NCBI GenBank assembly: GCA_015233465.1
Contig: JADFXP010000014.1
Span: 1 to 64,000 of the forward strand
Length of the DNA: 64,000 bases
Source: Candidatus Magnetominusculus dajiuhuensis
Lineage (GTDB): Bacteria > Nitrospirota > Thermodesulfovibrionia > Thermodesulfovibrionales > Magnetobacteriaceae
Reading direction: 5' to 3'
A program made the position numbers and the translations under genes. The notes below the pieces were generated by a model. That model was not told the origin of the DNA. It saw only the letters and a program-made list of their open reading frames with translations, and searched no databases. Each line of letters begins with the position of its first letter. The stretch's first letter is position 1. Positions 3,960 to 59,980 of the stretch are shown here, one piece after another.

Positions 3960-4022
3960 ATGGGTTCAAAGGGACGAGTCCCTTTGCGGGTGCCCGTAGA
4001 TAAAAAGGGCAGAGCCCTCATT
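3960..4022. repeat. Interspersed repeat, GGGTTCAAAGGG...GGGCAGAGCCCTCA type
   Basis: In reverse orientation this is the same element as at 54784-54862. One end is TGGGTTCAAAGGG, the other is the palindrome GGGCAGAGCCC followed by TCA. It lies beyond the mazG stop, where it may also act as a terminator. Confidence 0.75.
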
Positions 4023-4055
4023 CTTTAAAATACTTTCGGACAAATCATAACCCCC

Positions 4056-24126: not shown

Positions 24127-25578
24127 TTAATGTCTGACTCTAACAGCACGCGCACCCCCGCCCCCGCAGTTCCCTCTGCTAAAAGGGGAAGCCTTGCCTC
24201 CAAGAAAACCCACAGCATGAGCGCAGCATGAATCATTTTCTTCAGATGACCAATAAAAATATGCGCCGCCACTAGCAAATATAGGATCAATATGTACAGG
24301 AAATTTACCGTCAAAACCACTATTTATCTTAGATTGTTCATAAATCTTATTTAATTCATTCACAGTAGGCATTCTCCAATCACTATAGCCACCCGTAACT
24401 AATTTACGAATATAACTTTTTGAATCATTCCAATCAAGACACTTGCCTAAATCAGCATAACTATCCTTTTTTGTCCACATTAATCCAGTTTGCGAATCTA
24501 TTATTGTGCCGTCTCCAGAATCTATATATCTTCCATCAATTGAAGTTACTTGCCTTTTAGCAGGGATGGAAACCTTTACAACCTTAGCTTGTTGAGTTGA
24601 AGGATTAATTTTCTCAAGTTGTTTTATAGATAATCTAGCAACAGGCGCAAAACTGCTATTTGGATATTCAGTCAAGAAAGATTGAAAATCAGTTACGTCT
24701 TTTGAAATTTTTATCTTTTCCCAATATTCTTTTTCGGCATTAATATTATTTTTTGTAATGACAGAAGTCGGCACTGCCTGTTTTGATATTTTTGAATCAG
24801 TATCTATCTTAAAATAAAAATCTCCAGTTATTGAGGATGATTCCCATGGAGTTTGTTTATCATTTGATTTAGATTGAACAGAACTGCGCACATCCTTAAA
24901 CATCTCCTCTATTTTTAGCCCAGGTTTCTGCATACTGTACATTAATTCCTGAGTATAAAGACCATTTTTACCCTCTCCATCGCTTGCAACTGATCCTGGG
25001 GCTGTAGCATACGCTATAAACGAACCCTTTGGAGCCTTCATCTGAGCAAGCCCATTTTCTACAGACCTAAAACTCCTTGCAAAAGGATTATTCCTGCAGG
25101 CATCCAAAATCACTATATTTAGACGATTTTTCGCTGCATCCATCCTTGCAAGGACATAATCAGCGCTCATAGCCTCCACTTCAACTACTTCTTGTGTATC
25201 TATTGAGGCATTAATTGGTATAAGATAATTCTGTCCATTTACCTGCACCCCATGTCCAGCATAATAAAATAACCCCACTCCTCCATTTTTTATCTTATTT
25301 CCAAATTCAATTACACGTTTCATCATTTCATCTTTTGATAGATTTACTCCAGAAATGACCTCAAAATTCAAACCTTCTAATACCTTTGCCATGGCTATAG
25401 CATCATTTACAGGATTTTTAAGCGGTGAAGACTTATATGATCCATTGCCAATTACAAGAGCAACTCGTTTTTCTGTCCGCATAGCCTTGATTGAAGTCGA
25501 ATTATCATCTAAGGCATAAGCAAATATCGTTATATTAAGTGTAAATATAATTAGACTATGTATAAATATCTTTTTCAT
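24127..25578 (-). CDS. Secreted caspase-like protease fused to a DUF1566 domain
   Basis: 483 aa with a signal peptide (MKKIFIHSLIIFTLNITIFAYA). A caspase/metacaspase p20 domain spans about residues 36-250: VALVIGNGSY, YYAGHGVQ (catalytic His) and ILDACRNNPF (catalytic Cys). A linker with a WEKIKISKDVTDFQSFLTEYPNS segment follows, then a C-terminal DUF1566 (Lcl, lectin-like) domain at about 345-483 starting GRYIDSGDGTIIDSQTGLMW. The last 105 bases are markedly GC-rich, with poly-G, against AT-rich neighbours (see findings). It sits between tsaB and yjbQ in one operon, with 14- and 9-base gaps. The substrate is unknown. Confidence 0.9.
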   Translation of the reverse strand: MKKIFIHSLIIFTLNITIFAYALDDNSTSIKAMRTEKRVALVIGNGSYKSSPLKNPVNDAIAMAKVLEGLNFEVISGVNLSKDEMMKRVIEFGNKIKNGGVGLFYYAGHGVQVNGQNYLIPINASIDTQEVVEVEAMSADYVLARMDAAKNRLNIVILDACRNNPFARSFRSVENGLAQMKAPKGSFIAYATAPGSVASDGEGKNGLYTQELMYSMQKPGLKIEEMFKDVRSSVQSKSNDKQTPWESSSITGDFYFKIDTDSKISKQAVPTSVITKNNINAEKEYWEKIKISKDVTDFQSFLTEYPNSSFAPVARLSIKQLEKINPSTQQAKVVKVSIPAKRQVTSIDGRYIDSGDGTIIDSQTGLMWTKKDSYADLGKCLDWNDSKSYIRKLVTGGYSDWRMPTVNELNKIYEQSKINSGFDGKFPVHIDPIFASGGAYFYWSSEENDSCCAHAVGFLGGKASPFSRGNCGGGGARAVRVRH

Positions 25579-52332: not shown

Positions 52333-53106
52333 ATGCCAACAATTCTTATAACCAATGACGACGGTATCTTCTCCCCAGGGCTTGATGCCCTTGCCGAATC
52401 CCTAAAGACAATCGGAGATGTCATAATTATCGCCCCAGACCGTGAAAAAAGCGCTACCAGTCAGTCTCTGACCATCACAAGACCCCTTAAAGTCATCAAA
52501 ATTAATTCAAATAAATACACAATTGACGGCACACCAACTGACTGCATAGCTGTCGGCTTAAAAAAAATACTCACTAAAAAGCCTAACCTTATAGTCTCAG
52601 GCATCAATCTTGGCGGAAATCTCGGAGATGATATTAATTACTCTGGCACTGTAGCTGCAGCCAAAGAAGGCACTTTATTAGGCATTCCATCCTTTGCAAT
52701 ATCAGTTGTAGCACTTAAAGATTTCATCTTTGAAGCAGCTATGGAGACTGCCCCCAAAATCGCAATTATGATATTAAAAAATGGTCTCCCTGCTAATACT
52801 CTATTAAATGTAAATCTGCCCCTCGTCACCCCAGATAAAATTAAAGGATTTAAATTTACTAAACAAGGAAAACGTGTATACAATAACTCAATTATGGATA
52901 TTAACGACCCTTGGGGTAAACCCCACTTCTGGATCGGCGGAGGCACCCCCTCTTGGGACGGCGGAAATAATTCTGATTACTACGCAATCTCTAATAACTA
53001 CATTTCCATTACCCCGCTTCAGCTTGATATGACTAATTATGATTATCTTAAGGTTCTTCTTGAGGGCTCTGCCCATGTTATCTACGGGCCCCCGCAAGGA
53101 ATTTAA
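52333..53106 (+). CDS. surE: 5'-nucleotidase SurE
   Basis: A 257-aa metal-dependent nucleoside-monophosphate phosphatase. ILITNDDGIFSPGLDAL carries the two metal-binding Asp residues; SGTVAAAKEGTLLGIPSFAIS and VSGINLGGNLGDDINYSGT are conserved. The natural domain seems to end near DYLKVL; residues 243-257 (LEGSAHVIYGPPQGI) and the stop codon come from an interspersed repeat element. It is followed by pcm, its common neighbour. Confidence 0.95.
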   Translation: MPTILITNDDGIFSPGLDALAESLKTIGDVIIIAPDREKSATSQSLTITRPLKVIKINSNKYTIDGTPTDCIAVGLKKILTKKPNLIVSGINLGGNLGDDINYSGTVAAAKEGTLLGIPSFAISVVALKDFIFEAAMETAPKIAIMILKNGLPANTLLNVNLPLVTPDKIKGFKFTKQGKRVYNNSIMDINDPWGKPHFWIGGGTPSWDGGNNSDYYAISNNYISITPLQLDMTNYDYLKVLLEGSAHVIYGPPQGI

Positions 53107-53780: not shown

Positions 53781-54787
53781 TGAAAGAGGCATTATTATAT
53801 GAAAAACTGGATAATTCAAAGGTAAAATGCCTGTTATGCGCCCATTACTGCATTATCAATCATGGAAAAAGAGGCAAATGCACAGTTCGAGAAAATATTA
53901 ATGGTATATTATACACTTTAGTATATGGAAACCTTTGCTCAACTGCCATTGATCCTATAGAAAAAAAACCTCTATTTCATTTCCTGCCCGGCTCTCAGAC
54001 TATGTCAATAGCAACAGTCGGATGTAATCTCAAATGCCGTCATTGTCAAAATTATACTATCTCACAATATCCAATTGATAATAACGGTAATATTGCAGGA
54101 AACCAATATTCACCAATAGATGTTGTAAATGGAGCATTAAATACTGACTGCAAAAGTATATCATACACATATACAGAACCAACAATCTTTATGGAATTCG
54201 CCCTTGACTGCGCAAGACTCGCACGAGATAATGGGCTCAAAAATATTTTTGTAAGCAATGGGTTTATGTCTCCCCAAGGCGCAGAGATGATAATACCCTA
54301 CCTTGATGCAAATAATATTGACCTTAAAGGCGATAATGAATTTTATAAAAAAATCTGTAAGGCTAGATTAAAACCAGTGCAAGATACAATCAGATTAATG
54401 AAGTCAAGCGGAGTTTGGGTGGAAGTAACGACCTTAATAATCCCAGAGCTAAATGATTCAGAAAAAACATTAAGGGAAATTGCAGAATTCATACACTCAG
54501 TAGACCCTGGAGTCCCTTGGCATGTCAGTTCCTTTCGTCCAACATATAAATTAACCGACCGCCCCGCCACTTCAATAGAATCTCTCCAAAAAGCATATAA
54601 AATCGGCGTTGATACAGGGCTAAAATATGTTTATGTCGGCAATATGCCGAGTTTAGGCGGAGAAAATACCATATGCCCTAAATGTAAGACAACACTTATA
54701 AAACGTCATGGATTTAATGTGATAAGCAATATTATCAAAGATAAAAAATGCCCTAAATGCGGGGATTTTATTGAAATAATTTCATGA
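53780..54787 (+). CDS. amrS: AmmeMemoRadiSam system radical SAM enzyme
   Basis: 335 aa. An N-terminal zinc-like CLLCAHYCIINHGKRGKC motif is followed by the radical SAM cluster motif CNLKCRHCQN near residue 77. YTYTEPTIFMEFALDCARLARDNG and SNGFMSPQGAEMI are family hallmarks, and a C-terminal CPKCKTTL...CPKCGDF ribbon ends the protein. It belongs with AMMECR1 and Memo proteins in an RNA- or protein-modifying system whose reaction is not settled; those partners are not in the window. Its TGA stop is the first three bases of an interspersed repeat. Confidence 0.92.
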   Translation: MKEALLYEKLDNSKVKCLLCAHYCIINHGKRGKCTVRENINGILYTLVYGNLCSTAIDPIEKKPLFHFLPGSQTMSIATVGCNLKCRHCQNYTISQYPIDNNGNIAGNQYSPIDVVNGALNTDCKSISYTYTEPTIFMEFALDCARLARDNGLKNIFVSNGFMSPQGAEMIIPYLDANNIDLKGDNEFYKKICKARLKPVQDTIRLMKSSGVWVEVTTLIIPELNDSEKTLREIAEFIHSVDPGVPWHVSSFRPTYKLTDRPATSIESLQKAYKIGVDTGLKYVYVGNMPSLGGENTICPKCKTTLIKRHGFNVISNIIKDKKCPKCGDFIEIIS

Positions 54788-54862
54788 GGGCTCTGCCCTT
54801 TTTATCTATGGGCTACCCGCAAAGGGATTTGTCCCGGGGGTCTAAGACCCCTTGAACCCATT
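54784..54862. repeat. Interspersed repeat after amrS
   Basis: CATGAGGGCTCTGCCC, then a GGGCTACCCGCAAAGGG part, GGGGGTCTAAGACCCC and TTGAACCCATT. It supplies the stop codon of amrS and may act as its terminator. Confidence 0.85.
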
Positions 54863-55199: not shown

Positions 55200-55694
55200 A
55201 TGAAACGTAAAACAACAGTAAGACCAATGATTTTAGCTTTAGCATTGATGTTATTATTAGTATGGGTATCAGCCTCATATGCTAATAACAGATTTATAGA
55301 TAATGGAGACGGCACGATAACAGATACAAAAACAGGATTTATGTGGACAAAAGCAGATAGTTATGCGAATACATTTGGATGCCTTGATTGGAATGGAGCA
55401 AAGAGATATGTAAGCGGATTAAAAACAGGCGGATATAGTGATTGGGAAATGCCTAGTGTTCAGATGTTAAAGGATTTATATGACAAATCAAAGACTAATA
55501 TAACTTATACTCTACATGGTAAAATTCATATAGACCCAATATTTGAAAAAGGCGGGGCATATTGGTATTGGTCAAATGAACAATCAGGCTCCTGTTGCGC
55601 TCGATACGTCAGTTTCGTCAGTGGCTACATCGGCGCTCGCCACCGAGACTATTGCAGCGACGTTGGCGTTCGTGCCGTTCGCCTAGGACATTAA
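55200..55694 (+). CDS. Secreted DUF1566 (lectin-like) protein with GC-rich hypervariable-type end
   Basis: 164 aa with a signal peptide (MKRKTTVRPMILALALMLLLVWVSASYA) and one DUF1566/Lcl domain: RFIDNGDGTITDTKTGFMWTKADSYANTFGCLDW, GGYSDWEMPSVQMLKDLY, GGAYWYWSNEQ. The last 35 codons (55590-55694) are about 60% GC, against an AT-rich upstream part, and 31 of 35 end in C or T. This resembles the variable region of a diversity-generating retroelement target, whose mutable residues derive from AAC/AAT template codons. It would display a variable ligand-binding surface outside the cell. DUF1566 proteins without such a role also exist. Confidence 0.88.
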   Translation: MKRKTTVRPMILALALMLLLVWVSASYANNRFIDNGDGTITDTKTGFMWTKADSYANTFGCLDWNGAKRYVSGLKTGGYSDWEMPSVQMLKDLYDKSKTNITYTLHGKIHIDPIFEKGGAYWYWSNEQSGSCCARYVSFVSGYIGARHRDYCSDVGVRAVRLGH

Positions 55695-59843: not shown

Positions 59844-59882
59844 TTATTTCCTCCTAACAGATATTTATATAATTTTAAATAC

Positions 59883-59980
59883 ATGAGGGCTCTGCCCTTT
59901 TCATCTACAGGCTCCTGCAAGGGGCCTTTTTGTAAACTTTTTTGTAAAAAGTTTAACCATCTAACCCCTTGACCCCATTG
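59883..59980. repeat. Interspersed repeat between grpE and dnaK, entering grpE
   Basis: Almost the same as 28149-28238: TGAGGGCTCTGCCC, GGCTCCTGCAAGGGGCC, an AAACTTTTTTGTAAAAAGTTT hairpin, then CCCCTTGACCCCATT. The last part (59953-59980) codes for the grpE C-terminus. Confidence 0.85.

Follow-up and report, generated by a model that had tools for sequence, protein, structure and literature searches.

The locus and its encoded protein

Among the genes of the window, that is, the whole 64-kb stretch of DNA that was analyzed, is one for a small protein of the DUF1566 (Lcl_C) family, which the earlier note had proposed as the target of a diversity-generating retroelement (DGR) (Table 1). Pfam PF07603 (Lcl_C) matches residues 38-161 of this protein (7.3e-15), and its N terminus is hydrophobic, so that the protein is probably secreted. 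According to an AlphaFold model with a pLDDT of 90.2 (alignment of 15 relatives), the domain adopts a C-type-lectin-like fold. The sole strong match of the model in the PDB, as found by Foldseek, is the C-terminal domain of Legionella Lcl (8q4e, E 6.6e-5), which is the best fold match (TM 0.60-0.64) although it shares only 20% identity with the window protein. FGE-like enzymes and C-type lectins rank after 8q4e, with weak E-values. DUF1566 is the most common Pfam domain among DGR targets (PMC6642488).

Table 1. Features of the candidate target gene and of a paralog within the window.
Feature	Coordinates	Strand	Basis
Candidate DGR target gene (secreted DUF1566/Lcl_C protein, 164 aa)	55200..55694	+	ORF; Pfam PF07603; AlphaFold; Foldseek
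Probable signal peptide, MKRKTTVRPMILALALMLLLVWVSASYA	55200..55283	+	Reading of the sequence
Lcl_C/DUF1566 domain, C-type-lectin-like fold	55311..55682	+	Pfam and structure model
Putative DGR variable region (35 codons, 60% GC, 31 NNY, 0 NNG)	55587..55691	+	Composition, change point
Paralog, caspase-like peptidase C14 with C-terminal DUF1566	24127..25578	-	Pfam Peptidase_C14; signature weak in tail
Tail of the caspase-DUF1566 paralog	24130..24234	-	58% GC vs 35% in the rest; 24/35 NNY, 9/35 NNC

The body of the gene, which shares 52-59% identity with five paralogs of this genome, is native, and only the 3' end is foreign in composition, as DGR retrohoming gives. A variable region (VR) is expected to lie on a C-type-lectin-like or Ig-like fold and at its C terminus; the protein has the former fold, and the unusual patch stops at the stop codon. 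The window also holds a dispersed intergenic repeat with the core TGAGGGCTCTGCCC...ATCTA.GGGC, which occurs in either orientation at 3977-4030, 53053-53097, 54777-54814, and 59874-59927.

Composition of the 3' end

The final 35 sense codons have a GC content of 0.60, whereas the remaining gene has only 0.33. Third bases in this tail are 57% C, 31% T, 11% A, and 0% G, compared with 8% C, 32% T, 45% A, and 15% G elsewhere in the gene. A recount therefore agrees with the earlier description of a 60% GC tail in an AT-rich gene, with 31 of the 35 codons ending in C or T (NNY) and none in G; 20 of the 35 end in C (NNC), and 63 bases are G or C. The patch itself also stands as first described, but not its bounds of 55590-55694, which took in the stop codon and began one codon late: by change-point analysis of the third bases, the composition shifts at codon 130, position 55587 (permutation p < 0.0005). 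Across the 15,428 windows of 35 codons in the 58 genes of the 64 kb, only the tail reaches at least 31 NNY codons, and it also ranks first in NNC and GC. A high-NNC patch in the gene at 52333 belongs to SurE and is unrelated to the tail.

The amino acids of the tail do not by themselves account for this pattern. When the same 35 residues were recoded by local codon usage in 20,000 trials, 21.8 +/- 2.4 NNY codons, 6.0 +/- 2.2 NNC codons, and 48.5 +/- 2.8 G/C bases were expected, and the observed values (31, 20, and 63) were attained in none of the trials. Since synonymous redraws never attain them, the pattern concerns the wobble bases. It is therefore quite improbable that this is an ordinary lectin tail under selection, in which conserved Cys, Ala, Arg, and Gly residues combine with a chance choice of codons: the tails of all six paralogs are GC-rich, partly through their amino-acid content, and the synonymous null is weakly or not rejected in the other five, but the window gene lies outside the null in 20,000 trials and is the best of 15,428 windows. 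Even less credible is the proposal that C-ending codons are used here because the tail doubles as a feature at the nucleic-acid level, for instance a folded RNA. Such a feature could lie in a 105-base GC-rich patch that ends the gene, yet the predicted folding is not better than that of shuffled sequences (z of -0.19 for RNA and -0.17 for DNA), and the tail has no Rfam family and no overlapping ORF of at least 60 aa on either strand.

DGR controls within the same family

Positive controls were sought in 18 other genomes of the same bacterial family, in which many DUF1566 genes are often present. Reverse transcriptases (RTs) adjoin DUF1566 genes in two of these relatives, G005 and G007, and a search for repeat pairs that differ at adenines recovered textbook templates in both (contigs C67 and C72 of G005; C10 and C3 of G007). 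Over the aligned tail, 11-18 of 31-38 A sites (30-55%) are changed between template repeat and VR, as opposed to 0-1 of 59-65 non-A sites (0-2%). The template adjoins an RT with a MutS_I domain at its C terminus and, in three of the four loci, lies in frame upstream in the same ORF as the RT. The MutS domain I-like region is common to the RTs of all four loci (L086 2239-3840, L087 2937-4778, L088 3628-5478, and L089 7452-9137; Pfam-confirmed in L086 and L088). A literature search on DGR plus MutS returned no obvious description of such a fusion.

The compositional step of the window gene resembles that of the proven targets. Its tail exceeds its body by 0.25 in GC, and NNC is 0.53 in the tail vs 0.08 in the body. 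For the proven targets of G005 the GC step is +0.14 to +0.23 and NNC is 0.55-0.58 vs 0.11-0.18. One G007 target has a GC step of +0.13 and another, in a GC-richer context, of only +0.03; because the latter is also a proven target, a rise in GC cannot by itself serve as a general mark of a VR. No comparable step is seen in three homologs from Nitrospinota (38-44% identity where measured), which have GC differences of -0.04 to +0.05 and NNC of 0.26-0.34 vs 0.25-0.32.

The likeness extends to single codons. NNY codons, as expected at positions derived from AAY, are found in the tail in agreement with the proven targets of the family, and a codon alignment has 16 columns in which the relatives' templates encode Asn, with NNY in the window gene at 14 of them. 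The two remaining columns are a conserved K/R column and one that lies upstream of the switch. Constant columns follow the same order in the window gene and the relatives (A, V, F/M, G, V/I, ... VR). Like the G005 and G007 targets, the window gene combines a DUF1566 domain with a putative VR at the extreme 3' end, a compositional switch, and an alternation of constant and variable codons (A-x-x-V-x-F/M-x-x-G-x-V/I-x-x-x). In contrast to these targets, its tail has constant residues of its own (CCAR ... C ... GVRAVR), and the template beside an RT with C-terminal MutS_I that they possess was found nowhere in its genome. The tail matches none of the relatives' templates, with about 40% differences at non-A sites. 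Because the tails and codon columns of the controls agree with those of the window gene, the DGR reading of the tail signature is well founded. Against DGR writing, Asn is absent from the tail and A occupies only about 9 of the 28 first and second bases of the variable columns. Since so few adenines are left, more A sites must have been mutated than the 30-55% of the family controls if a DGR did write the tail.

Search for a template, a reverse transcriptase, and accessory genes

The assembly of the window's own genome comprises 3.13 Mb in 75 contigs and is 92.5% complete. BLASTN of the tail against it returned only the self-match, along with short matches due to chance or to paralogs. Because a template with many A differences may escape BLAST, a pattern allowing the VR base or A at each position was also used; applied to two neighbouring segments, 45 and 48 bases long, and tolerating 3 mismatches, it found only the gene itself in this assembly. 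Comparison of 12 candidate VRs with loci of the same genome gave no convincing template (at least 6-7 violations per 54 bases, mostly in A-rich stretches). Across 176 genomes of the order, the template pattern returned only A-rich noise, with similar counts for a reversed control. It was not found in viral contigs, nor was a corresponding pattern for the FGE-type genes found in the own genome. No significant DNA hairpin lies 3' of the window gene.

An RVT_1 search of the genome detected two RTs, both on contig C75. According to PADLOC these are Drt3a (3e-116) and Drt3b (2e-198), which lie side by side as is characteristic of the DRT3 anti-phage defence pair (L009 8917-12314), and they were rejected as the missing DGR RT. 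A protein with an FGE-sulfatase domain is encoded next to them (L009 7892-8587). A profile built from the relatives' DGR RTs matched Drt3a and, through its MutS part, one further frame, which is probably MutS itself, and detected no DGR-type RT in the genome. The accessory protein Avd is not present in all DGRs. Here the sole PF05635 match in the genome, on contig C7, is a domain fused to ThiE, at the C terminus of a ThiE-like protein, and is not Avd.

Two defining parts of a DGR, the template and the RT, are thus absent within the assembly. The earlier note had placed both elsewhere in the genome and had suggested looking there for an adenine-biased near-copy of the tail, a DGR-type RT, and an Avd gene; none of these was recovered from the 92.5% complete assembly, although its reading of DUF1566 as a DGR target class and of the tail signature is borne out, the latter by same-family controls whose AAY template columns line up with NNY codons of the window gene. 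With a genome 92.5% complete and in 75 contigs, absence from the assembly does not amount to proven absence from the genome. Because the template and RT were not found in the assembly, no DGR is claimed for this genome, and the tail is said only to resemble a DGR product.

The main explanation that dispenses with a DGR is a mosaic gene, whose 3' end was recombined in from a GC-rich donor DUF1566 gene. Such an exchange would be expected to leave an abrupt switch in composition too, and it accords with the failure to find DGR parts in the assembly. However, a GC-rich donor should bring G-ending codons, and the tail has 0 of 35 ending in G and 31 of 35 in C or T. Moreover, no phage homolog was found, the sole match to a viral contig being a spurious 12-residue stretch. 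A mosaic origin is therefore improbable, if less so than the ordinary-tail and nucleic-acid proposals above.

Paralogs and other lectin-fold genes

The genome carries six DUF1566 genes, four of which encode long proteins with a caspase-like domain in their N-terminal region. One of these four lies within the window (Table 1); the others, on contigs C3, C15, and C74, were assigned by evident sequence similarity. The joining of a caspase-like domain to a C-terminal DUF1566 lectin-like domain, four times in one genome, is a sensor-protease architecture. All six paralogs share the frame CCA(R/K/H)xVxFxxGx...C...G(V/A)R(A/P)VR, in which the x positions are variable.

The tails of the other five paralogs are GC-richer, with a wobble signature that is at most faint; the synonymous null is weakly or not rejected for them, and not rejected for the tail at 24130..24234. 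In pairwise comparisons of wobble bases at shared residues, the tails of the six are no more alike than the bodies, which led us to reject a template shared by all six. Because the other five signatures are faint and wobble bases are not shared, no common template appears to have written the six tails recently, and a shared, active template in the recent past is unlikely. The state of the other five tails suits either separate, older writing followed by erosion or no writing at all. About 4 of the 14 variable-column residues of the window gene, as read from the alignment, are the same as in the paralog C6, which exceeds the expectation for random writing.

Signature tails also occur among the FGE-type genes of the genome, the clearest being on contig C37 (61% vs 35% GC), where the observed values were attained in none of 5,000 synonymous draws. 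At this locus (L123 388-2902) a dynamin-like GTPase is followed by the FGE-domain protein with its strongly NNY-biased, GC-rich tail. Contig C37 also carries an ssb-like gene, a UvrD-like helicase, and a Cas4-like nuclease, named by reading the sequence, and may be a mobile element.

Outside this genome, the family relative G010 has 59 DUF1566 matches and VR-like tails (L126, L128, and L129) and no RT match in an 88% complete assembly.

Origin of the tail

The best explanation, to which we assign a probability of roughly 0.68, is that the tail is the VR of a DGR target whose RT and template lie outside the assembly, either lost recently or unassembled. A template repeat would have held AAY codons at ligand-facing positions and C- or T-ending codons at constant ones. 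Its reverse transcription, with random bases inserted at adenines, would have replaced the 3' end of an AT-rich lectin gene and given a secreted C-type-lectin-like domain a diversified loop surface, which would bind a ligand. The analysis shows the abrupt switch in composition, its likeness to proven VRs of the family, the fold, and the lack of RT and template in the assembly; past writing by a DGR, secretion, and the binding of a ligand are proposed. Recent loss of the RT and template would have left the VR as a frozen orphan; alternatively, both may reside in the unassembled ~7.5% of the genome.

In the second of these cases a remote DGR could still be active, with its RT, accessory gene, and template in the unassembled or unbinned ~7.5% (or carried by a phage or plasmid), and would diversify the window gene in trans. 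The fragmentation and 92.5% completeness of the assembly leave room for such an element, the variable columns of the window tail show no erosion, and G010 likewise has VR-like DUF1566 tails without an RT match. There is also a precedent in Thiohalocapsa PB-PSB1, in which targets without local machinery are diversified in trans or have intact structural variants, or are left without machinery (PMC10907252). On the other hand, the missing share of the genome is a priori only ~7.5%, and no shared template is now rewriting the five paralogs. We regard an active remote DGR as doubtful, though a good deal likelier than a mosaic. Because the paralog evidence and the completeness of the genome lean that way, loss of the machinery is slightly favoured over its non-assembly.

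Relation to known systems and implications

The window gene is of an already known kind, a DUF1566 target of a DGR that is either lost or remote. Like the targets of Thiohalocapsa PB-PSB1, it bears a putative VR with no RT or template at the locus, and in such systems CLec sensors are likewise joined to caspase-like domains (PMC10907252). Unlike the window gene, those targets come with templates or intact structural variants, and their diversification was seen in reads (PMC10907252).

The difference in wobble composition between tail and body suggests a single-gene flag for DGR targets in AT-rich genomes. Such a flag would work in a draft genome without an RT or template, where template-based DGR finders miss targets of this type. 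More tentatively, the genome may keep a frozen repertoire of lectin-fold sensors, comprising the six DUF1566 proteins (four of them caspase-like) and several of the FGE type, from a past DGR that has since been lost; their binding sites would then be fossils of different ages, with the window gene the youngest. If the tail is a frozen DGR product, this genome would allow the fate of hypervariable binding sites to be studied once the mutator is gone, including whether a single useful variant persists and how quickly the NNY signature fades.
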